Shown here: piece after piece, positions 35,190 through 42,570 of the stretch
How the letters are laid out: each line of letters opens with the position of its first letter
Numbering within the stretch: the first letter of the stretch is position 1
Source of the DNA: Mycolicibacterium rufum
GTDB taxonomy: Bacteria; Actinomycetota; Actinomycetes; Mycobacteriales; Mycobacteriaceae
Direction of reading: 5' to 3'
Assembly (NCBI RefSeq): GCF_022374875.2
Contig: NZ_CP092427.2
Span: 4,092,001 to 4,156,000, forward strand
Length of the DNA: 64,000 nt
Made by a program: the position numbers and the translations under genes
The notes under the pieces: generated by a model
Seen by the model: the letters and a program-made list of their open reading frames with translations, nothing else
What the model was told of the DNA's origin: nothing
Database searches by the model: none

Positions 35190-36542
35190 ATGACCAACGA
35201 CCCGAGGTACTCACCGGCTCCGCAGCCGGGTCACCAGCCCGGAATGCAGGGCCAGGTGCCCCACGGTCAGGTCGGTCCTCAGCGCTCCGGTTCCTATGAA
35301 CAGCAGGGTGCCTGGGACTGGCGTTACGCGACCGAGCAGCAGCGTCAGGCCTACCGGTCGCCGTACGACCCCTATCCGGGTGCGCCGATGCCGGGCCAGT
35401 ACCCACGCCCGGGCATGCCGCCCGTCGCGCCGCAGCCGCGTAAGCGTTCGCGCGCAACGGGATTGGCGGTCGGCGCGGTGGCGATCGCGATCGTCTCCGC
35501 GGGCGTCGGCGGCGGTGTCGCGACGCTGGTGCACCCGGACCATCGGCTGGGCGGCATCAGCGCGTCGGGCGCGGCGCCCAGTGTGCCCGCGGCCAGCGTT
35601 CCCAACGGGTCCGTCGAGCAGGTCGCCGCGAAGGTCGTGCCCAGCGTCGTCAAGCTCGAGGTGAACGAGGGCCGGCAGTCCGAGGAGGGGTCCGGGGTGA
35701 TCCTGTCGACCGACGGCCTCATTCTGACCAACAACCATGTGGTCGCGGCCGCAGCCGGAACCACCGGCGGCCCCGCGGGCCCGGAGACCAAGGTGACCTT
35801 CTCCGACGGCAAGACCGCGCCGTTCGACATCATCGGCACCGATCCCGGCAGTGACATCGCCGTGGTGCGGGCCAAGAACGTCTCCGGTCTGACGCCGATC
35901 GCGATCGGTTCGTCGGCGAACCTGCGCGTCGGACAGGACGTCGTCGCGGTCGGGTCGCCGCTCGGCCTCGAGGGCACCGTGACAACCGGCATCATCAGCG
36001 CGCTCAACCGCCCGGTCGCCGCCGGCGGCGACGCCCAGAACCAGAACACCGTGCTCGACGCCATCCAGACCGACGCCGCGATCAACCCGGGCAACTCGGG
36101 CGGCGCGCTGGTCAACATGAACGGCGAACTGGTCGGCATCAACTCGGCGATCGCCACCATGGGCGCCGACGCCGGCGCGGCGCAGGGCGGCTCGATCGGC
36201 CTCGGCTTCGCGATCCCGGTCGACCAGGCCAAGCGGATCGCCGACGAGTTGATCCAGACGGGCAGCGCGTCGCGGGCGTCGCTGGGCGTGCAGGTCGGCA
36301 ACAACGCCGGTGGCGACGGAGCCAAGATCGTCGAAGTCACCCCGGGTGGCGCGGCGTCCTCGGCCGGACTGCCCGCCGGTTCCGTGGTGACCAAACTCGA
36401 CGACCGGGTCATCGACAGTGCCGACGCGCTCGTCGCCGCCGTGCGTTCCAAGGCGCCCGGGGACAAGGTGACGCTGACCTTCCTGGACCAGGGCGGCAAG
36501 CCGCAGACCGTCGACGTCACGCTCGGCAAGGCCGCCCAGTGA
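35190..36542 (+). CDS. pepD: HtrA-family serine protease PepD
   Basis: A 450-aa DegP/HtrA protease. A Pro/Gln/Gly-rich cytosolic N terminus of about 90 residues precedes one membrane helix (GLAVGAVAIAIVSAGVGGG) and a trypsin-like domain with the triad in NNHVV, GSDIAVV and NPGNSGGALV. A single PDZ domain is C-terminal. It degrades or refolds envelope proteins under stress and belongs to the MprAB regulon. AGGAAG precedes the ATG at 35190, and an MprA box lies upstream. Confidence 0.94.
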   Translation: MTNDPRYSPAPQPGHQPGMQGQVPHGQVGPQRSGSYEQQGAWDWRYATEQQRQAYRSPYDPYPGAPMPGQYPRPGMPPVAPQPRKRSRATGLAVGAVAIAIVSAGVGGGVATLVHPDHRLGGISASGAAPSVPAASVPNGSVEQVAAKVVPSVVKLEVNEGRQSEEGSGVILSTDGLILTNNHVVAAAAGTTGGPAGPETKVTFSDGKTAPFDIIGTDPGSDIAVVRAKNVSGLTPIAIGSSANLRVGQDVVAVGSPLGLEGTVTTGIISALNRPVAAGGDAQNQNTVLDAIQTDAAINPGNSGGALVNMNGELVGINSAIATMGADAGAAQGGSIGLGFAIPVDQAKRIADELIQTGSASRASLGVQVGNNAGGDGAKIVEVTPGGAASSAGLPAGSVVTKLDDRVIDSADALVAAVRSKAPGDKVTLTFLDQGGKPQTVDVTLGKAAQ

Positions 36543-36619
36543 GCGTCGCATCCGGCCGTCGGCGACCGACCCTGCTGGTGGCTGCGCCGATGTCCGGGCC
36601 GGGTTATACGGTTAGCCCC

Positions 36620-37117
36620 ATGGAACAGCCCCACACGTTGGTCGGCCGCGCACTGGTCGTGGTCGTGGACGACCGCACCGCCCACGGGGACGAAGAAGAT
36701 CACAGCGGACCGCTGGTCAGTGAACTGCTCGGAGAGGCCGGCTTCGTCGTCGACGGCGTGATCGTGGTGTCCTCCGACGAGGTCGAGATCCGCAATGCGC
36801 TCAACACCGCGGTCATCGGCGGTGTCGACCTGGTGGTGTCGGTCGGCGGCACCGGTGTCACGCCGCGCGACGTCACCCCGGAAGCGACCCGCGACCTGCT
36901 CGACCGCGAACTGCTCGGCATCGCCGAGGCGGTCCGCGCCTCGGGGCTCGCGGCAGGCACCGCCGACGCCGGACTCTCCCGCGGGCTCGCCGGCGTGTCA
37001 GGTAGCACGCTCGTGGTGAACCTGGCGGGTTCGCGCGCCGCGGTCCGCGACGGGATGGCCACCCTCGGGCCTCTGGCGGCGCACATCATCGCGCAGCTAT
37101 CCAGTTTGGAGATCTAA
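36620..37117 (+). CDS. moaB2: MoaB/Mog-family molybdopterin biosynthesis protein
   Basis: A 165-aa MogA/MoaB protein that adenylates molybdopterin in cofactor synthesis, or a MoaB paralogue. The binding block VSVGGTGVTPRDVTPEAT and the C-terminal GSTLVVNLAGS are typical. The ATG at 36620 gives a normal N terminus; the open frame extends back to 36539, overlapping the pepD end. A TATACG -10-like element sits about 12 bases before the ATG, so a near-leaderless transcript is possible. Confidence 0.9.
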   Translation: MEQPHTLVGRALVVVVDDRTAHGDEEDHSGPLVSELLGEAGFVVDGVIVVSSDEVEIRNALNTAVIGGVDLVVSVGGTGVTPRDVTPEATRDLLDRELLGIAEAVRASGLAAGTADAGLSRGLAGVSGSTLVVNLAGSRAAVRDGMATLGPLAAHIIAQLSSLEI

Positions 37118-37143
37118 GCGCCGTGGACTGGCAGCGGCTGGTC

Positions 37144-37184
37144 CCGACGCGGGTCGACAGGGCGTCCCTGCCGGCCCGCGTCGG
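37144..37184 (+). terminator. Nested hairpin after moaB2
   Basis: CCGACGCGGG (37144-37153) pairs with CCCGCGTCGG (37175-37184), and inside it CAGGG (37158-37162) pairs with CCCTG (37166-37170). It is 26 bases after the stop and probably ends the pepD-moaB2 transcript. Confidence 0.6.
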
Positions 37185-37248
37185 CGTGTCGTCCCATCCC
37201 TCGCGACCTGCACGGTTACGGGAAGGTGAACGGCCGTCCCAACCCGAC

Positions 37249-37264
37249 TGTGATCTTCGTCACA
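37249..37264. promoter_or_regulatory. Perfect CRP site
   Basis: TGTGA-TCTTCG-TCACA is an exact match to the mycobacterial CRP consensus TGTGA-N6-TCACA. It ends 13 bases before the start codon of a 52-codon ORF and is about 400 bp upstream of the porin array promoter. Confidence 0.75.
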
Positions 37265-37277
37265 CAGGAATGGGTCG

Positions 37278-37436
37278 ATGAGCCAACCGACCCCCCCATC
37301 GCGGGATGCAGTTAACAAGATCTTCGGGAATCCCTTGCCCGAGACCCCGATTGACGAACGGGATCCGCAATCGCCGGACGACGAAATCGATCGCGATCGC
37401 TGGCTGCGTGACAACGTTCCGCCGCATCACGGCTGA
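37278..37436 (+). CDS. Small hydrophilic protein, 52 aa
   Basis: An ATG-started ORF of 52 codons encoding a highly charged protein: MSQPTPPSRDAVNKIFG at the N terminus, several Asp/Glu-Arg clusters in the middle and DRWLRDNVPPHHG at the end. AGGA lies 9 bases upstream. Codon choice is GC-rich at third positions as in its neighbours, and it fills the gap between moaB2 and the porins. I do not know a function. Its position directly behind a perfect CRP site suggests cAMP control. Confidence 0.6.
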   Translation: MSQPTPPSRDAVNKIFGNPLPETPIDERDPQSPDDEIDRDRWLRDNVPPHHG

Positions 37437-37828
37437 CCTGTAGGTTCGTCACAGCCCCATTTCAGGAAACTGCTGTAACAGCGGCCCCATCAGACGCGAA
37501 CACCATGATGCGGGGTCAAGATCAGCGACGGTTTCCATCGGCCCATCCCCGTCGTCGCGAGGAGGGGGTGCGGAACCTGCGGGGAATCGTCAGCAAACGT
37601 CGCGCGCGTTGTGCCCTCCATGACACCACCGGGGCGTACGCGTTGCCGGTCGGATGCCTCCTCGTTATGTTCCTCGTGTCATCGAGATGAGTGATTCGTA
37701 AGAGCGACATGTGGACTTTTTAATTCCACTCACATGAAGTTCTCGCGAGGTGTGTGGTGTAGCAGTACGGCCAGGCACGAACACCGGAGCCCCGACGCGG
37801 GGAACCGTTCTACGGAGCAAGGGAGAAC
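37437..37828 (+). other. Non-coding leader and promoter region of porin 1
   Basis: No convincing gene is seen in these 392 bases. TTGCCG (37643-37648), a 17-bp spacer and TATGTT (37666-37671) form a promoter-like element, followed by a leader of about 150 bases. The stretch from the -10 to the ATG recurs in similar form before porin 3, including a GC-rich hairpin ending about 25 bases before the ATG. Confidence 0.6.
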
Positions 37829-38470
37829 ATGAAGGCAATCAGTCGGGTGCTGATCGCGATGGTCGCGGCCATCGCGGCGATGTTCGTGAGCACTGGCACC
37901 TCTCACGCAGGGCTGGACAATGAGCTGAGCCTGGTCGACGGCCAGGGTCGGACGCTGACGATCCAGCAGTGGGACACGTTCCTCAACGGCGTGTTCCCGC
38001 TCGACCGCAACCGCCTGACCCGCGAGTGGTTCCACTCCGGCAAGGCGACCTACATCGTGGCCGGCGAGGGCGCCGACGACTTCGAGGGCACGCTGGAGCT
38101 GGGTTACCAGATCGGCTTCCCGTGGTCGCTGGGCGTCGGCATCAACTTCAGCTATACCACCCCGAACATCGCGTTCGACGCCCAGGACTTCGTGAGCCCC
38201 GGCGCCATCGACCTGTTCCCCGGTATCTCCACTCCGCCGCTGTTCCCCGGCGTGTCGATCTCGGCTGACCTGGGCAATGGCCCCGGCATCCAGGAGGTCG
38301 CCACCTTCACCGTGGACGTCGCCGGCCCCGGCGGTTCGGTGGCGGTGTCCAACGCCCACGGCACGGTGACCGGCGCTGCCGGTGGTGTGTTGCTGCGTCC
38401 GTTCGCACGGCTCATCTCGTCCTCGGGCGACAGCGTCACCACCTACGGCGAACCCTGGAACATGAACTGA
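37829..38470 (+). CDS. MspA-family porin, copy 1
   Basis: A 213-aa outer-membrane (mycomembrane) porin precursor. A 27-residue signal peptide ends SHA, giving a 186-aa mature chain starting GLDNELSLVDGQ and ending TYGEPWNMN, as in MspA, which forms an octameric goblet-shaped channel for small nutrients. At mature positions 90-93, which line the MspA constriction as DDGD, this copy has DAQD. It has its own promoter and leader and is followed by a strong hairpin. It differs from copy 2 at only about 7 mature residues. Confidence 0.95.
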   Translation: MKAISRVLIAMVAAIAAMFVSTGTSHAGLDNELSLVDGQGRTLTIQQWDTFLNGVFPLDRNRLTREWFHSGKATYIVAGEGADDFEGTLELGYQIGFPWSLGVGINFSYTTPNIAFDAQDFVSPGAIDLFPGISTPPLFPGVSISADLGNGPGIQEVATFTVDVAGPGGSVAVSNAHGTVTGAAGGVLLRPFARLISSSGDSVTTYGEPWNMN

Positions 38471-38497
38471 CCTTTTGGTTTCGCCCCGGAAGTCAGG

Positions 38498-38528
38498 CGA
38501 AGTGCCGGTCGAGGAGACCGGCACTTCG
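38498..38528 (+). terminator. 13-bp hairpin between porins 1 and 2
   Basis: 38498-38510 pairs perfectly with 38516-38528 around GAGGA. It lies 27 bases after the porin 1 stop and only 30 bases before the porin 2 start codon. No T-run follows. Confidence 0.7.
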
Positions 38529-38558
38529 TCTACTCAACCCACTCGTCTAAGGATGGAC

Positions 38559-39200
38559 ATGAAAGCAATCTCTCGGGTACTCGTCGCGATGGTCGCGGCC
38601 ATCGCAGCGTTGTTCGTGAGCACGGGCACCTCTCACGCGGGGCTGGACAATGAGCTGAGCCTGGTCGACGGCCAGGGTCGGACGCTGACGATCCAGCAGT
38701 GGGACACCTTCCTCAACGGTGTGTTCCCGCTCGACCGCAACCGCCTGACCCGCGAGTGGTTCCACTCCGGCAAGGCCATGTACAACGTGGCCGGCGAGGG
38801 CGCCGACGACTTCGAGGGCACGCTGGAGTTGGGCTACCAGATCGGCTTCCCGTGGTCGTTGGGCGTGGGTATCAATTTCAGCTACACCACCCCGAACATC
38901 GCGTTCGACGGCCAGGACTTCGTGAGCCCCGGCGTGGTCGACCTGTTCCCCGGTATCTCCACGCCGCCGCTGTTCCCCGGTGTGTCGATCTCGGCTGACC
39001 TGGGCAATGGCCCGGGCATCCAGGAGGTCGCCACCTTCACCGTTGACGTCGCCGGCCCGAGCGGCGCCGTGGCGGTGTCCAACGCGCACGGGACGGTGAC
39101 CGGCGCTGCCGGTGGTGTGCTGCTCCGTCCGTTCGCACGGCTCATCTCGTCCTCGGGTGACAGCGTCACCACCTACGGCGAACCGTGGAACATGAACTGA
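38559..39200 (+). CDS. MspA-family porin, copy 2
   Basis: A 213-aa porin precursor with signal peptide ending SHA and mature start GLDNELS. The ATG at 38559 gives MKAISRV and has AAGGA 6 bases upstream; the open frame extends further back but without family similarity. The constriction segment is DGQD (mature 90-93). Only about 24 bases lie between the porin 1 terminator and the RBS, so expression probably depends on readthrough from porin 1. A UUCG-capped terminator follows. Confidence 0.95.
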   Translation: MKAISRVLVAMVAAIAALFVSTGTSHAGLDNELSLVDGQGRTLTIQQWDTFLNGVFPLDRNRLTREWFHSGKAMYNVAGEGADDFEGTLELGYQIGFPWSLGVGINFSYTTPNIAFDGQDFVSPGVVDLFPGISTPPLFPGVSISADLGNGPGIQEVATFTVDVAGPSGAVAVSNAHGTVTGAAGGVLLRPFARLISSSGDSVTTYGEPWNMN

Positions 39201-39525
39201 CGCAACCTTCTCGACACGGGAGCGGCCTCTGACTTCGGTCAGGGGCCGTTTCTCGTTCTCCACCTCCCTTCGACGCCCAGGAGAACAGGATCGTTCCCGT
39301 TCCTGTGGCCAGCCTGTCAATCGGATACGAAAGTGCTTGCGAGGCAGGCGGTCCGTCGTGGCGCTGCTTATGTTTCTTCTGTCAACGATGAGCGAATCGT
39401 AAGAACGGCATGTGGAGTCCTTCATCTTTCTCCCGTGCGGCGCTTACGAGGTGTGGTGACAGGACGCCAGGCACAACAACGCGGAGCCCCGACCCGGGGC
39501 GCCGTTTCACAAAGCAAGGGGAGAC
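39201..39525 (+). other. Intergenic region: terminator, then promoter and leader of porin 3
   Basis: No gene is seen in these 325 bases. The first 60 hold the porin 2 terminator. A -10-like TTATGTT lies at 39368-39374, and the following leader resembles that of porin 1, with shared stretches around GTAAGAaCGgCATGTGGA and a GAGCCCCGACC hairpin region just before the ATG. Confidence 0.6.
39223..39258 (+). terminator. UUCG-tetraloop terminator after porin 2
   Basis: 39223-39233 pairs with 39238-39248 over 11 bp with one G-U wobble and a TTCG loop. It is followed by the T-rich TTTCTCGTTCT. This is a textbook intrinsic terminator. Confidence 0.8.
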
Positions 39526-40167
39526 ATGAAGGCAATCAGTCGGGTGCTGCTTGCGGTGGTCGCGGCCATCGCTGCGTTGTTCGTGAGCACGGGCACCTCT
39601 CACGCAGGGCTGGACAATGAGCTGAGCCTGGTCGACGGCAAGGGCCGTACGCTGACGATCCAGCAGTGGGACACGTTCCTCAACGGTGTGTTCCCGCTCG
39701 ATCGCAACCGCCTGACCCGCGAATGGTTCCACTCGGGCAAGGCCGTGTACAACGTCGTCGGTGACGGAGCCAAGGACTTCGCGGGCACGTTGGAGCTGGG
39801 TTACCAGATCGGCTTCCCGTGGTCGTTGGGCGTGGGTATCAACTTCAGCTACACGACTCCGAACATCGCGCTCGACGCTCAGGACTTCGTGAGCCCCGGC
39901 TCGGTCGACCTGTTCCCCGGTATCTCGACACCGCCACTGTTCCCCGGGGTGTCGATCTCCGCTGATCTCGGCAACGGTCCCGGCATCCAGGAGGTCGCGA
40001 CGTTCTCGGTGGACGTCGAGGGTGATCACGGCGCGGTGGCGGTGTCCAACGCGCACGGCACCGTGACCGGCGCGGCGGGTGGGGTTCTGCTGCGGCCCTA
40101 TGCGCGGCTGATCTCCAAAGACGGTGACAGCGTCACCACCTACGGCGAGCCGTGGAACATGAACTGA
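39526..40167 (+). CDS. MspA-family porin, copy 3
   Basis: A 213-aa porin precursor. Signal peptide ends SHA, the mature chain starts GLDNELSLVDGK and ends GEPWNMN. Its constriction segment is DAQD, as in copy 1, but it has the GDGAKDFAG and VEGDHGAVAVSN segments shared with copy 4. AAGGGGA precedes the ATG. It has its own promoter-like element and leader similar to porin 1, and a strong terminator. Confidence 0.95.
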   Translation: MKAISRVLLAVVAAIAALFVSTGTSHAGLDNELSLVDGKGRTLTIQQWDTFLNGVFPLDRNRLTREWFHSGKAVYNVVGDGAKDFAGTLELGYQIGFPWSLGVGINFSYTTPNIALDAQDFVSPGSVDLFPGISTPPLFPGVSISADLGNGPGIQEVATFSVDVEGDHGAVAVSNAHGTVTGAAGGVLLRPYARLISKDGDSVTTYGEPWNMN

Positions 40168-40187
40168 CGTCCTGCATCTGTCCACGA

Positions 40188-40225
40188 AGCGGCCTCCGGC
40201 ATCTGCCGGGGGCCGCTTTTCTCTG
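40188..40225 (+). terminator. Intrinsic terminator after porin 3
   Basis: 40188-40200 pairs with 40205-40217 over 13 bp with one wobble around ATCT. TTTCTCTG follows directly. Confidence 0.8.
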
Positions 40226-40325
40226 TGCCTTCCCATGGCGCCGATGATCCGCAGTCAAGCTGTGGCCGTCCTGGCAGTTGGTTACCAAAGTGCCTGCGGG
40301 GCAGGCGCTGTGACGGTGTTCCCGC

Positions 40326-40332
40326 TTACGTT
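40326..40332 (+). promoter_or_regulatory. Promoter -10-like element of porin 4
   Basis: TTACGTT is the counterpart of TTATGTT before porins 1 and 3. The upstream stretch AAAGTGCCTGCGGGGCAGGC is nearly the same as that before porin 3. The leader here is much shorter, about 55 bases. Confidence 0.4.
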
Positions 40333-40390
40333 CGTCTCCTCGACGGGGAGAGATCGAACAGCAGTCACCTTCTAGTGGGCCAGGGAGAGC

Positions 40391-41032
40391 ATGAAGACAT
40401 TGATCCGGGTACTGGCCATCGTCGGCATGAGCATGGCGGCGTTGGTCATCGGTACCGGTACCTCGCACGCCGGACTGGACAATCAGTTGAGCCTCGTCGA
40501 CGGTCAGGGGCGCACGTTGACGATTCAGCAGTGGGACACGTTCCTCAACGGTGTTTACCCGCTGGACCGCAACCGGCTGACCAGGGAGTGGTTCCATTCC
40601 GGCAAGGCCGTCTACACCGTCGTGGGCGACGGTGCCAAAGACTTCGCCGGCACTCTGGAACTCGGGTACCAGATCGGCTTCCCGTGGTCGCTGGGTGTCG
40701 GCATCAACTTCAGCTACACCACCCCGAACATCGCCCTCGACCAACAGGACTTCATCAGCCCGGGACGCGTCGATCTCTTCCCGGCGATCTCGACGCCGCC
40801 GCTGCTTCCCGGGGTTTCCTTTTCGGCCGACCTGGGTAACGGTCCCGGCATTCAGGAAGTCGCGACGTTCTCGGTCGATGTGAAAGGAGATCATGGTGCT
40901 GTGGCGGTCTCGAACGCTCATGGCACCGTGACCGGTGCCGCGGGCGGCGTGCTGTTGCGGCCCTATGCGCGACTCATCTCCAAGGATGGCGACAGCGTCA
41001 CCACCTACGGAGAGCCCTGGAACATGAACTGA
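40391..41032 (+). CDS. MspA-family porin, copy 4 (most divergent)
   Basis: A 213-aa porin precursor with a different signal peptide (MKTLIRVLAIVGMSMAALV) and mature start GLDNQLS, where the other copies have GLDNELS. The constriction segment is DQQD, and a nearby position that is Ala, Val or Ser in the others is Arg (SPGRVDLF). Codon use also departs most from the other copies. AGGGAGAG precedes the ATG. No terminator follows, so the next secreted protein gene may be read from the same transcript. Confidence 0.95.
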   Translation: MKTLIRVLAIVGMSMAALVIGTGTSHAGLDNQLSLVDGQGRTLTIQQWDTFLNGVYPLDRNRLTREWFHSGKAVYTVVGDGAKDFAGTLELGYQIGFPWSLGVGINFSYTTPNIALDQQDFISPGRVDLFPAISTPPLLPGVSFSADLGNGPGIQEVATFSVDVKGDHGAVAVSNAHGTVTGAAGGVLLRPYARLISKDGDSVTTYGEPWNMN

Positions 41033-41163
41033 CGGGCGCGGAGCACAGGAAATCCCAAGGTGAAAGCATGATTCGCAACATCGAACTAGCTGCGCGCAAG
41101 CGGGTAAACACTGGTAATCTTTCCCACGAAAGCTTCATCCACATCAGAGAGAAGGGACGGCCG

Positions 41164-41580
41164 GTGGCCGAGTACGGTTCTTCCGTTTCCGCGCGGTTGG
41201 CGAAGCCGATCGCAATGGGGCTGAGCGGTCTTGCCGCTGCCGCCGCGCTCATGACGATCGGTGTGGGCACCGCCAGCGCCGACGATATTACCGGCGATCC
41301 CTCCACGCCGGGCAACGGCCGCGAGGCAGACGGCGCTGTCCGTTCGCCGGACGTGTCCAACGGTTCGTCCGGCGTGTTCGCGCAGGGCGAGGTTCGCACC
41401 TCCGGGTTCGGCGAGGCGCTCGCCACTGGAGGCGGGGAGGTCCGCACGTCGGATCGCGGCGTCCCTGGCACGAAGGCATGGGTGTTCTCCGGCGCCGCCG
41501 GCGACATCAGCGCCTGCGTGTACGACGGCCCGTGGTGCGCGAACTGGATGGCGATCCCGTTCGACATCAACAACCCCTGA
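41164..41580 (+). CDS. Secreted protein after the porin array
   Basis: A 138-aa predicted secreted protein. From the GTG at 41164 the N terminus has Arg/Lys, then a hydrophobic core (IAMGLSGLAAAAALMTIGV) and cleavage after ASA, leaving about 100 residues. The mature part repeats GEVRTSG and GEVRTSD and has two Cys near the C terminus (CVYDGPWC), possibly a disulfide. AGAGAAGGGA precedes the GTG; an ATG at 41068 would add 32 residues that spoil the signal. Family not recognised. It may be cotranscribed with porin 4. Confidence 0.75.
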   Translation: MAEYGSSVSARLAKPIAMGLSGLAAAAALMTIGVGTASADDITGDPSTPGNGREADGAVRSPDVSNGSSGVFAQGEVRTSGFGEALATGGGEVRTSDRGVPGTKAWVFSGAAGDISACVYDGPWCANWMAIPFDINNP

Positions 41581-41594
41581 TCGATCTCCACCAG

Positions 41595-41624
41595 GAAAGC
41601 CCCCGGCGAGAGCCGGGGGCTTTC
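41595..41624. terminator. Bidirectional terminator between secreted protein and mscL
   Basis: 41595-41607 pairs perfectly with 41612-41624 over 13 bp around GAGA, with A-rich and T-rich edges inside the stem. It serves the plus-strand porin region and the convergent mscL gene. Confidence 0.8.
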
Positions 41625-41647
41625 TTGGTGTATCGGCCGATGTGACG

Positions 41648-42109
41648 TCAGTCGCGGTCGGCGCTGGTGTGCGCCGCGGTGTCCGGGCTCGGGCCGGTGC
41701 CCGGCCCGCTGACGTGCTTGCCCGACGAATCGCCGTTGGTCTCCCGGAGCAGGTTGCGGATCTCGGTGAGCAGGCTCAGCTCGGTGTCCTGGGCCTGCTC
41801 CACCTCGCCCCGCTCGCGAAGCTTCTTGTAGGGCAGCACGATCACGAAATAGACGACCGCCGCGACGATGATGAAGTTGATGGCCGCCGAGAGCACCGCG
41901 TTGAAGTCCACGAACTGGTCTCCGCCGAGCGGGATCTTGAGGATCCCGTACTCCTTGTCCGGGCTGGCGCCGATGCGGTCGATGAGGGGCTGGATGACGC
42001 TCTTGGTGAAGGCCGTCACGAGTGCGGTGAAGGCCGTGCCGATGACCACCGCGACCGACAGGTCGATCACGTTGCCGCGGGCGAGGAAGTCCTTGAAACC
42101 CTTCAGCAT
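41648..42109 (-). CDS. mscL: Large-conductance mechanosensitive channel
   Basis: A 153-aa MscL, a homopentameric channel that opens under membrane tension to relieve hypo-osmotic stress. The N terminus [27 protein letters not shown] (here read in two parts) leads into helix TM1; TM2 is [16 protein letters not shown]. The C-terminal amphipathic helix ([10 protein letters not shown]) is intact and is followed by a longer Gly/Ser/Pro tail than usual. Neighbour order matches M. tuberculosis Rv0985c. Confidence 0.95.
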
Positions 42110-42273
42110 CGAAAGGTCCTCTCAGTATCGAAGTGTCCTGCTGTCAGGAAGCTACGTTAGCCGTTCCTGCCAGCCGACGGTGAGATTCTGCCACCGGAAT
42201 TATCGGGCTGACCTGCGGGTTTAACGGGTCAGATCGAACGAAACATCAGAACTTCTCACCAGGGAGGGCGAAC

Positions 42274-42570
42274 ATGAAGACATCGACCGTCACCGCCGCC
42301 GCAGCCGTCGCGCTGACCGCAGGAGTTCTGGGACTGGCCGCCCCGGCGTTGGCCGCGCCGACCGCCGGGAGCGCCGAGGACACCATCAGCCAACTCGAGG
42401 CCGAGGGGAACCGCGTGATCGTGACCCGGCAGTCGAACGCTCCGCTCGACGAGGCCACCGTGGTCAACCTCACGACGGGACCGGACATCTGGAAGAGGGT
42501 GTGGGACGCCAACTTCGACGATCAGCACCTGACCCGCACGGGCAGCGTCATCTACCTCACGGTGAAGTGA
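42274..42570 (+). CDS. Small secreted mycobacterial protein
   Basis: A 98-aa protein with a classic signal peptide ending ALA and a mature domain of about 70 residues, with GSAEDTISQLEAEGNRVIV followed by a SNAPLDEATVVNLTTG segment. This is a common small secreted mycobacterial family without a known function. GGGAGG lies 9 bases before the ATG. It is divergent from mscL and convergent, 6 bases apart, with the SAF-domain gene. Confidence 0.82.
   Translation: MKTSTVTAAAAVALTAGVLGLAAPALAAPTAGSAEDTISQLEAEGNRVIVTRQSNAPLDEATVVNLTTGPDIWKRVWDANFDDQHLTRTGSVIYLTVK

Follow-up and report, generated by a model that had tools for sequence, protein, structure and literature searches.

Why would a mycobacterium keep four MspA-type porin genes in a row whose products differ at the narrowest part of the channel? 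The question is raised by a 64,000-nucleotide stretch of the Mycolicibacterium rufum genome (contig NZ_CP092427.2, positions 4,092,001 to 4,156,000; hereafter the window, with positions counted from its first letter), in which such an array occupies positions 37829 to 41032. The reading that appears to fit best, with a probability of about one half on the sequence evidence, is that the array maintains constriction isoforms in separate transcription units. On this view, the conserved moaB-porin-mscL locus carries ordinary general-diffusion porins expanded into a tandem array, which would supply extra porin together with a small set of isoforms, all of which would keep a ring of Asp90 next to a neutral residue 91. 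Both the locus and the protein family are known, and M. chelonae and M. abscessus already provide known cases of tandem MspA porins; what remains interesting here is an order of constriction types conserved against partly homogenised gene bodies, along with a conserved copy carrying Q91 and R99.

The preliminary description of this DNA reported four complete, in-frame MspA-type porin genes, and this is what the window contains. Copy 1 (37829..38470), copy 2 (38559..39200), copy 3 (39526..40167) and copy 4 (40391..41032) are all on the plus strand, and each is an intact open reading frame (ORF) of 213 codons with an ATG start; the mechanical ORF list places the start of copy 2 at an upstream TTG. 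All four match the Pfam family MspA (PF09203) with E-values of 9.7e-37 to 7e-38 (127.0-130.7 bits, cut-off 22.9), and the two copies scanned against the NCBIfam equivalog NF053716 ('porin MspA') scored 379.7 bits (copy 1) and 374.4 bits (copy 4), the cut-off being 280. The proteins also show the rim-domain fold by which the MspA family is recognised and are ordinary members of it.

Alignment to the M. smegmatis MspA chain 1uun identifies a 27-residue leader ending in SHA, followed by the mature start GLDN, and the numbering used here takes preprotein residue 28 as mature residue 1. Residues 90-93 read DAQD, DGQD, DAQD and DQQD in copies 1 to 4, as had been described. Asp90 is thus present in every copy, and residue 91 is Ala in copy 1 (GCC, 38180-38182), Gly in copy 2 (GGC, 38910-38912), Ala in copy 3 (GCT, 39877-39879) and Gln in copy 4 (CAA, 40742-40744). 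The Arg noted near the constriction of copy 4 is mature Arg99 (CGC, 40766-40768).

Residue 91 is not the sole difference among the window copies. Copy 1 aligns to MspA without a gap through residue 93, after which its loop is two residues longer; because this insert brings an additional Asp in every copy, the aspartates of the constriction region are not simply fewer. Over the 186 mature positions, variation is found mainly at 47-59 and 89-105 and near the MspA-aligned positions 132-141 and 163-170. Copies 1 and 2 are distinguished from copies 3 and 4 by Asp versus Lys at position 56, Glu versus Ala at 59, Pro versus Asp at MspA-aligned 138 and Ser-Ser versus Lys-Asp at MspA-aligned 169-170, and copies 3 and 4 differ in charge at MspA-aligned 136. 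These MspA-aligned positions, which we take to line the rim and vestibule, also differ in charge from MspA itself, whose N108 aligns with a Pro of the window copies; few of the differences between copies fall in the stretches that make up the barrel stem of MspA. Differences in the rim as well as in the constriction could matter, because MspA with D90, D91 and D93 changed to Asn has a conductance of 1.6 nanosiemens (nS) compared with 4.9 nS for MspA, and MspB, which is two rim residues off MspA, gives 2.4 and 3.4 nS (PMC3377714).

The net charge (K+R-D-E) of copies 1 to 4 is -12, -12, -10 and -7, respectively, that of the A96R crystal form of MspA being -11, and copy 4 is the least negative isoform of the four. 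The MspD porin of M. smegmatis, with its neutral residue 91 (Gly91) and fewer negative charges than MspA (net charge -8.35 versus -11.38), resembles the window copies in these respects (PMC13098993). Copy 4 is less negative than its neighbours, just as MspD is less negative than MspA; this is a parallel in charge only, and copy 4 may be the least cation-favouring isoform of the array. PorA of Rhodococcus corynebacteroides, with one negative residue in the constriction region, is described as less cation-selective (PMC9233653). MspD comes from a single, dispersed gene that zinc starvation induces, and it has been linked to zinc uptake (PMC13098993), whereas the window porins form a tandem array; an MspD-like porin with DGGD at the constriction is also found in another genome of the sample (G077, L278).

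The preliminary description had proposed comparing residues 90-93 across related arrays, and this comparison speaks for maintained isoforms. The order of residue 91 is A-G-A-Q both in the window and in the four porins that M. chubuense DSM 44219 has at this locus, A-G-A in genome G054, and AAAAGGAQ across the eight intact copies of M. chlorophenolicum DSM 43826 (L255, 5273-12292). The last of these arrays has at least nine porin units, one of them broken by an assembly gap; its intact copies 3-5 are identical, and the true number of units may exceed nine. A91 thus precedes G91 among the front copies in each case, as single copies in the window, M. chubuense and G054 and as a run of A followed by G,G in M. 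chlorophenolicum.

A tree built from 35 genes with the loop excluded (as were 9 of the 44 alignment rows, from five more distant genomes) places this order in a historical frame. Several species share two ancient classes of paralog, a front class to which copies 1 and 2 belong and a rear class to which copies 3 and 4 belong. The rear class, with 13 sequences from seven genomes, forms one clade (support 100/99), within which the window's copy 4 and its counterparts in M. chubuense and M. chlorophenolicum form another (100/100). Outside the loop, window copy 1 is sister to window copy 2 (99/95), and a single clade of all copy-1 bodies was rejected by the approximately unbiased (AU) test (p-AU 7.9e-5). 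Only 6 of 642 bases distinguish copy 5 from copy 6 of M. chlorophenolicum, and every one of them lies within codons 91-100. The simplest reading of this history is that the constriction types are old and that the remainder of the gene continues to be exchanged; the alternative is independent, repeated change in the second copy. The retention of this order in close species hints at a use for the differences rather than chance.

Counts of loop changes between species indicate strong constraint in copy 4. The loop of copy 4 (residues 88-108) shows 0 nonsynonymous and 8 synonymous changes relative to M. chubuense (P = 1.4e-5 against neutrality) and 0 versus 7 relative to M. chlorophenolicum. Between species, the copy 1 loop has 0 nonsynonymous versus 5 synonymous changes (P = 0.001) and the copy 3 loop 3.2 versus 5.8 (P = 0.012).

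The arrangement of putative regulatory elements suggests how isoforms could be expressed separately. Promoter-like elements were scored with a 60-nucleotide profile built from 65 of 78 regions upstream of first copies (13 lacked the anchor), which themselves scored from -16.8 upwards with a median of 78.5; control stretches of moaB reached a maximum of -24.2. The element before copy 1 (37646..37705, plus strand) includes TATGTT at 37666-37671, the motif proposed as the -10 of M. fortuitum porM1 (PMC2651896), and is followed by a near-palindrome, CATGTGGA...TCCACTCACATG. A second promoter-like element precedes copy 3 (39347..39406, plus strand; score 48.0), and the element is likewise found before copy 3 in M. 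chubuense and G054 and before copy 8 in M. chlorophenolicum. The profile detected none before copy 2 of the window. Over the whole sample, 30 of 57 downstream copies scored above the control maximum, among them, by a small margin, M. chubuense copy 4 (-20.2). A BLAST search with 37630-37760 against the M. rufum genome returned with confidence only the query itself (next E-value 0.7) and missed the diverged element before copy 3. A sigma-70 promoter scan found no promoter, and Rfam reported no family at the gathering threshold in 37100-42300.

Strong predicted hairpins, all on the plus strand, separate the copies. The 88-bp spacer between copies 1 and 2 (z = -4.1) contains a hairpin at 38495..38531 with 16-nucleotide arms that are 94% complementary and no T run, which may act in leaky termination or in RNA processing; comparable hairpins, changed in stem sequence, occur in four other arrays (L009, L176, L177 and L255). 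A terminator-like hairpin with a T-rich tail follows copy 2 (39221..39254; z = -5.1 for 39201-39270) and another hairpin with a T-rich tail follows copy 3 (40188..40221; z = -4.5 for 40168-40240). A terminator scan listed five sites, with 2.4 expected, which of the three array hairpins include only that after copy 2. Together, these predictions point to three transcription units, in which copies 1 and 2 are probably co-transcribed and copies 3 and 4 would each be transcribed separately, so that the ratio of isoforms could be set unit by unit.

The main rival explanation is pure gene dosage, whereby the copies raise porin output while drift at residue 91 is tolerated because a single Asp ring, that of D90, is enough; we regard it as a serious possibility. 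We searched for moaB in 158 genus genomes and took the downstream region from 77 of the 89 with a strong porin match (E < 1e-40); the other 12 were left out, six because their contig was short or ended close to moaB and six because they fell outside the listed moaB matches. Both neighbours, moaB and mscL, were found in 72 of the 77 loci, which contain one porin gene in 43 cases, two in 21, three in four and four in four. Residue 91 of the 113 copies in these 72 loci is D in 45, G in 34, Q in 26, A in 3, N in 2, S in 2 and P in 1, the sole P91 belonging to an atypical gene in L235.

When the survey was widened to 147 distinct loci, in which relatives of the query are over-represented and some loci are truncated, it yielded 241 porins, 235 of which could be clearly anchored. 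Residue 90 of these is D in 234 and N in 1, and residue 91 is D in 101, G in 65, Q in 44, A in 21, S in 3 and N in 1. By these counts, the family retains D90 almost without exception but not D91, as the dosage explanation would have it. Asp91 is absent from 134 of the 235 anchored porins and does not define the family, and we rejected its loss from the array as an unusual trait; the surprise expressed in the preliminary description that Asp91 is never present in the window gives way to the ordinary state of a family in which even M. smegmatis MspD has Gly91. Porins without Asp90 are rare: N90 occurs in L181, and the third copy of L021 (7669-8298), one of the six unanchored porins, has GGWG.

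The dosage explanation also accounts for the near-identity of copies in some arrays. M. chlorophenolicum copies 1 and 3-7 are 97-100% identical and are accompanied by five identical 92-bp spacers, and in M. chelonae no more than one to four differences separate the mature sequences of the three clustered porins (PMC3989263). Against pure dosage stand the type order, which three to four species share even though their gene bodies are partly homogenised, the strongly constrained loop of copy 4 and the second promoter-like element upstream of copy 3.

Several observations nevertheless weigh against maintained isoforms. The locus most often contains just one porin gene (43 of 72 intact loci), and most arrays are uniform at residue 91 (for example, 15 QQ, 14 DD and 12 GG among 62), which dosage alone would explain. 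Mixed residues 91 are found in 9 of the 62 arrays, and in four more if unanchored N91 copies are read by eye; eight of the nine belong to the window and to genomes related to it in the tree (L009, L011, L012, L176, L177, L236 and L255). The difference between A and G in copies 1 and 2 amounts to one or two bases and could be near-neutral, and in the copy 2 loop, with 3 nonsynonymous and 3 synonymous changes relative to M. chubuense, constraint is not significant (P = 0.18). M. chubuense copy 1 groups with M. chlorophenolicum copy 1 (95/91), showing that homogenisation is only partial. Before copy 4, no promoter-like element was detected by the profile, the best match (40305..40364, plus strand) being sub-threshold at -26.1. 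Finally, the constriction-region blocks have a mean predicted local distance difference test (pLDDT) score of only 48-60 in the predicted monomer model, indicating low confidence there, including in how residue 91 is oriented to the lumen.

An improbable alternative is that agents such as phages or toxic solutes exert diversifying selection on the constriction and that the tandem copies serve as a reservoir. Comparing the 44 closest equal-length tandem pairs (from 62 arrays) with 14 pairs of single-copy orthologs, the pooled ratio of nonsynonymous to synonymous differences per site (pN/pS) in the loop is about fourfold higher in the tandem pairs, 0.40 (bootstrap 0.31-0.55) versus 0.10 (0.02-0.21), the ratios for the body being 0.088 and 0.045. 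In some arrays, nearly all mature differences lie within the loop, and in 9 of 126 array copies, from 7 arrays and including both copies of M. iranicum AT2.18 (L018), the body is nearest its own sibling while the loop is clearly nearer another genome. The loop ratios imply that tandem copies are freer at the constriction, yet without positive selection by the pooled measure, which remains well below 1; ratios above 1 are confined to single pairs with very few changes (e.g., L188). Between the four window copies, the ratio of nonsynonymous to synonymous substitution rates (dN/dS) for the mature proteins is 0.04-0.13, and the loops of copies 1 and 4 are conserved. The preliminary description had suggested copy-number or sequence-diversifying selection: copy number does vary between species, from one to at least nine, whereas diversifying selection on the array is unsupported by these pooled and pairwise ratios.

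We also considered whether loops are generally spared from gene conversion. The effect appeared clear at first, with a loop-to-body pS ratio of 2.36 in 16 arrays versus 1.05 in 11 controls (p = 0.036), but was not upheld in a larger sample, where the ratio of 1.8 was significant by Fisher tests (p = 0.0001-0.0003) but not by rank tests (p = 0.15-0.21). When each array contributed one pair of adjacent, equally long copies, total pS was below 0.3 in 44 of 45 pairs, and synonymous differences fall in the loop in 57 of 363 cases in tandem pairs (15.7%, expected 10.4%) and in 28 of 258 in controls (10.9%); this excess has a pooled p of 0.0018, but its cluster bootstrap (9.6-22.9%) spans the expected value, and comparing 20 close pairs with 14 controls by rank test gave p = 0.61. 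An excess so dependent on individual arrays argues against diversifying selection as well. Individual arrays do show loop sparing plainly, for example those of M. chlorophenolicum (copies 5/6), M. iranicum AT2.18 (L018) and G153 (L203); the window pair 1/2 shows none at synonymous sites. That Mycolicibacterium arrays are generally libraries of constriction loops, in which bodies are homogenised by recombination and distinct, partly trans-species loops are retained, is a speculative extension that we consider doubtful.

Nocardia NfpA/NfpB is reportedly a hetero-oligomeric porin of unlike subunits, but obligate mixed octamers are very improbable for the window, because every copy looks complete and the prevalence of single-porin loci indicates that homo-oligomers probably work in the family, even though the scarcity of differences in the stem, and working pores formed by linked MspA-MspB dimers (PMC3377714), are compatible with them.

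Maintained isoforms thus remain the preferred reading, and one further sequence feature may bear on the copy 4 type. Q91 is accompanied by Lys or Arg in the loop in 13 of 16 proteins versus 3 of 102 proteins without Q91 (2 of 120 were unanchored and dropped), a possible association that is a lead only, as the proteins come mostly from two related groups and represent few independent lineages. Among the matches listed in a literature search, which covered titles and abstract openings and left subscription journals mostly outside, none was found that deals with how tandem porins of mycobacteria differ at the constriction.

The surroundings of the array are those of the porM1 locus of M. fortuitum, with which the window shares the neighbouring molybdopterin gene and mscL, the TATGTT motif and a hairpin 3' of the gene, although one porin gene is reported there, in the available text of PMC2651896, compared with four here. 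On the left is a gene for a moaB/mog-type molybdopterin-binding protein (36539..37117, plus strand; Pfam MoCF_biosynth), itself preceded by an htrA-type protease gene, and on the right the convergent mscL (41648..42109, minus strand; Pfam and NCBIfam MscL). Between the array and mscL, 41068-41580 encodes a 170-residue protein with a putative leader and no Pfam or NCBIfam match; it is 87-92% identical within the close group and 38-49% identical in L013 and L053, and was not found in most other loci compared. Three further, distant PF09203 genes are present elsewhere in the M. rufum genome, a side-by-side pair at about 3.285 Mb (3284445-3285694) and one at 4818429-4818959. One porin of a four-copy array in another genome (G197:C22:23314-23958) has an internal TAG stop.

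Tandem organisation resembling that of the window is described for the three clustered MspA-type porins of M. chelonae (PMC3989263) and for two in M. abscessus subsp. massiliense (PMC10243398); the text consulted on these clusters does not take up constriction types. The adjacent MspA-family genes PorA and PorB of Rhodococcus ruber, whose products form pores alone and together (PMC9233653), are two genes of unlike length, whereas the window has four close paralogs. The preliminary description had suggested that the array may supply pores of different selectivity or mixed oligomers, and precedents for such behaviour are MspD with its Gly91 and the R. ruber pair, respectively.

MspA is both the model mycobacterial porin and a nanopore for DNA sequencing. 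If the type series is kept, arrays such as this one would offer natural constriction loops on a near-constant body, and, if close species keep the constriction series, the role of the constriction in nutrient and metal uptake would become testable with native proteins. Should the loop library hold true, one cell would make graded, separately regulated and perhaps mixed-subunit pores, the same on the outside but with different filters.

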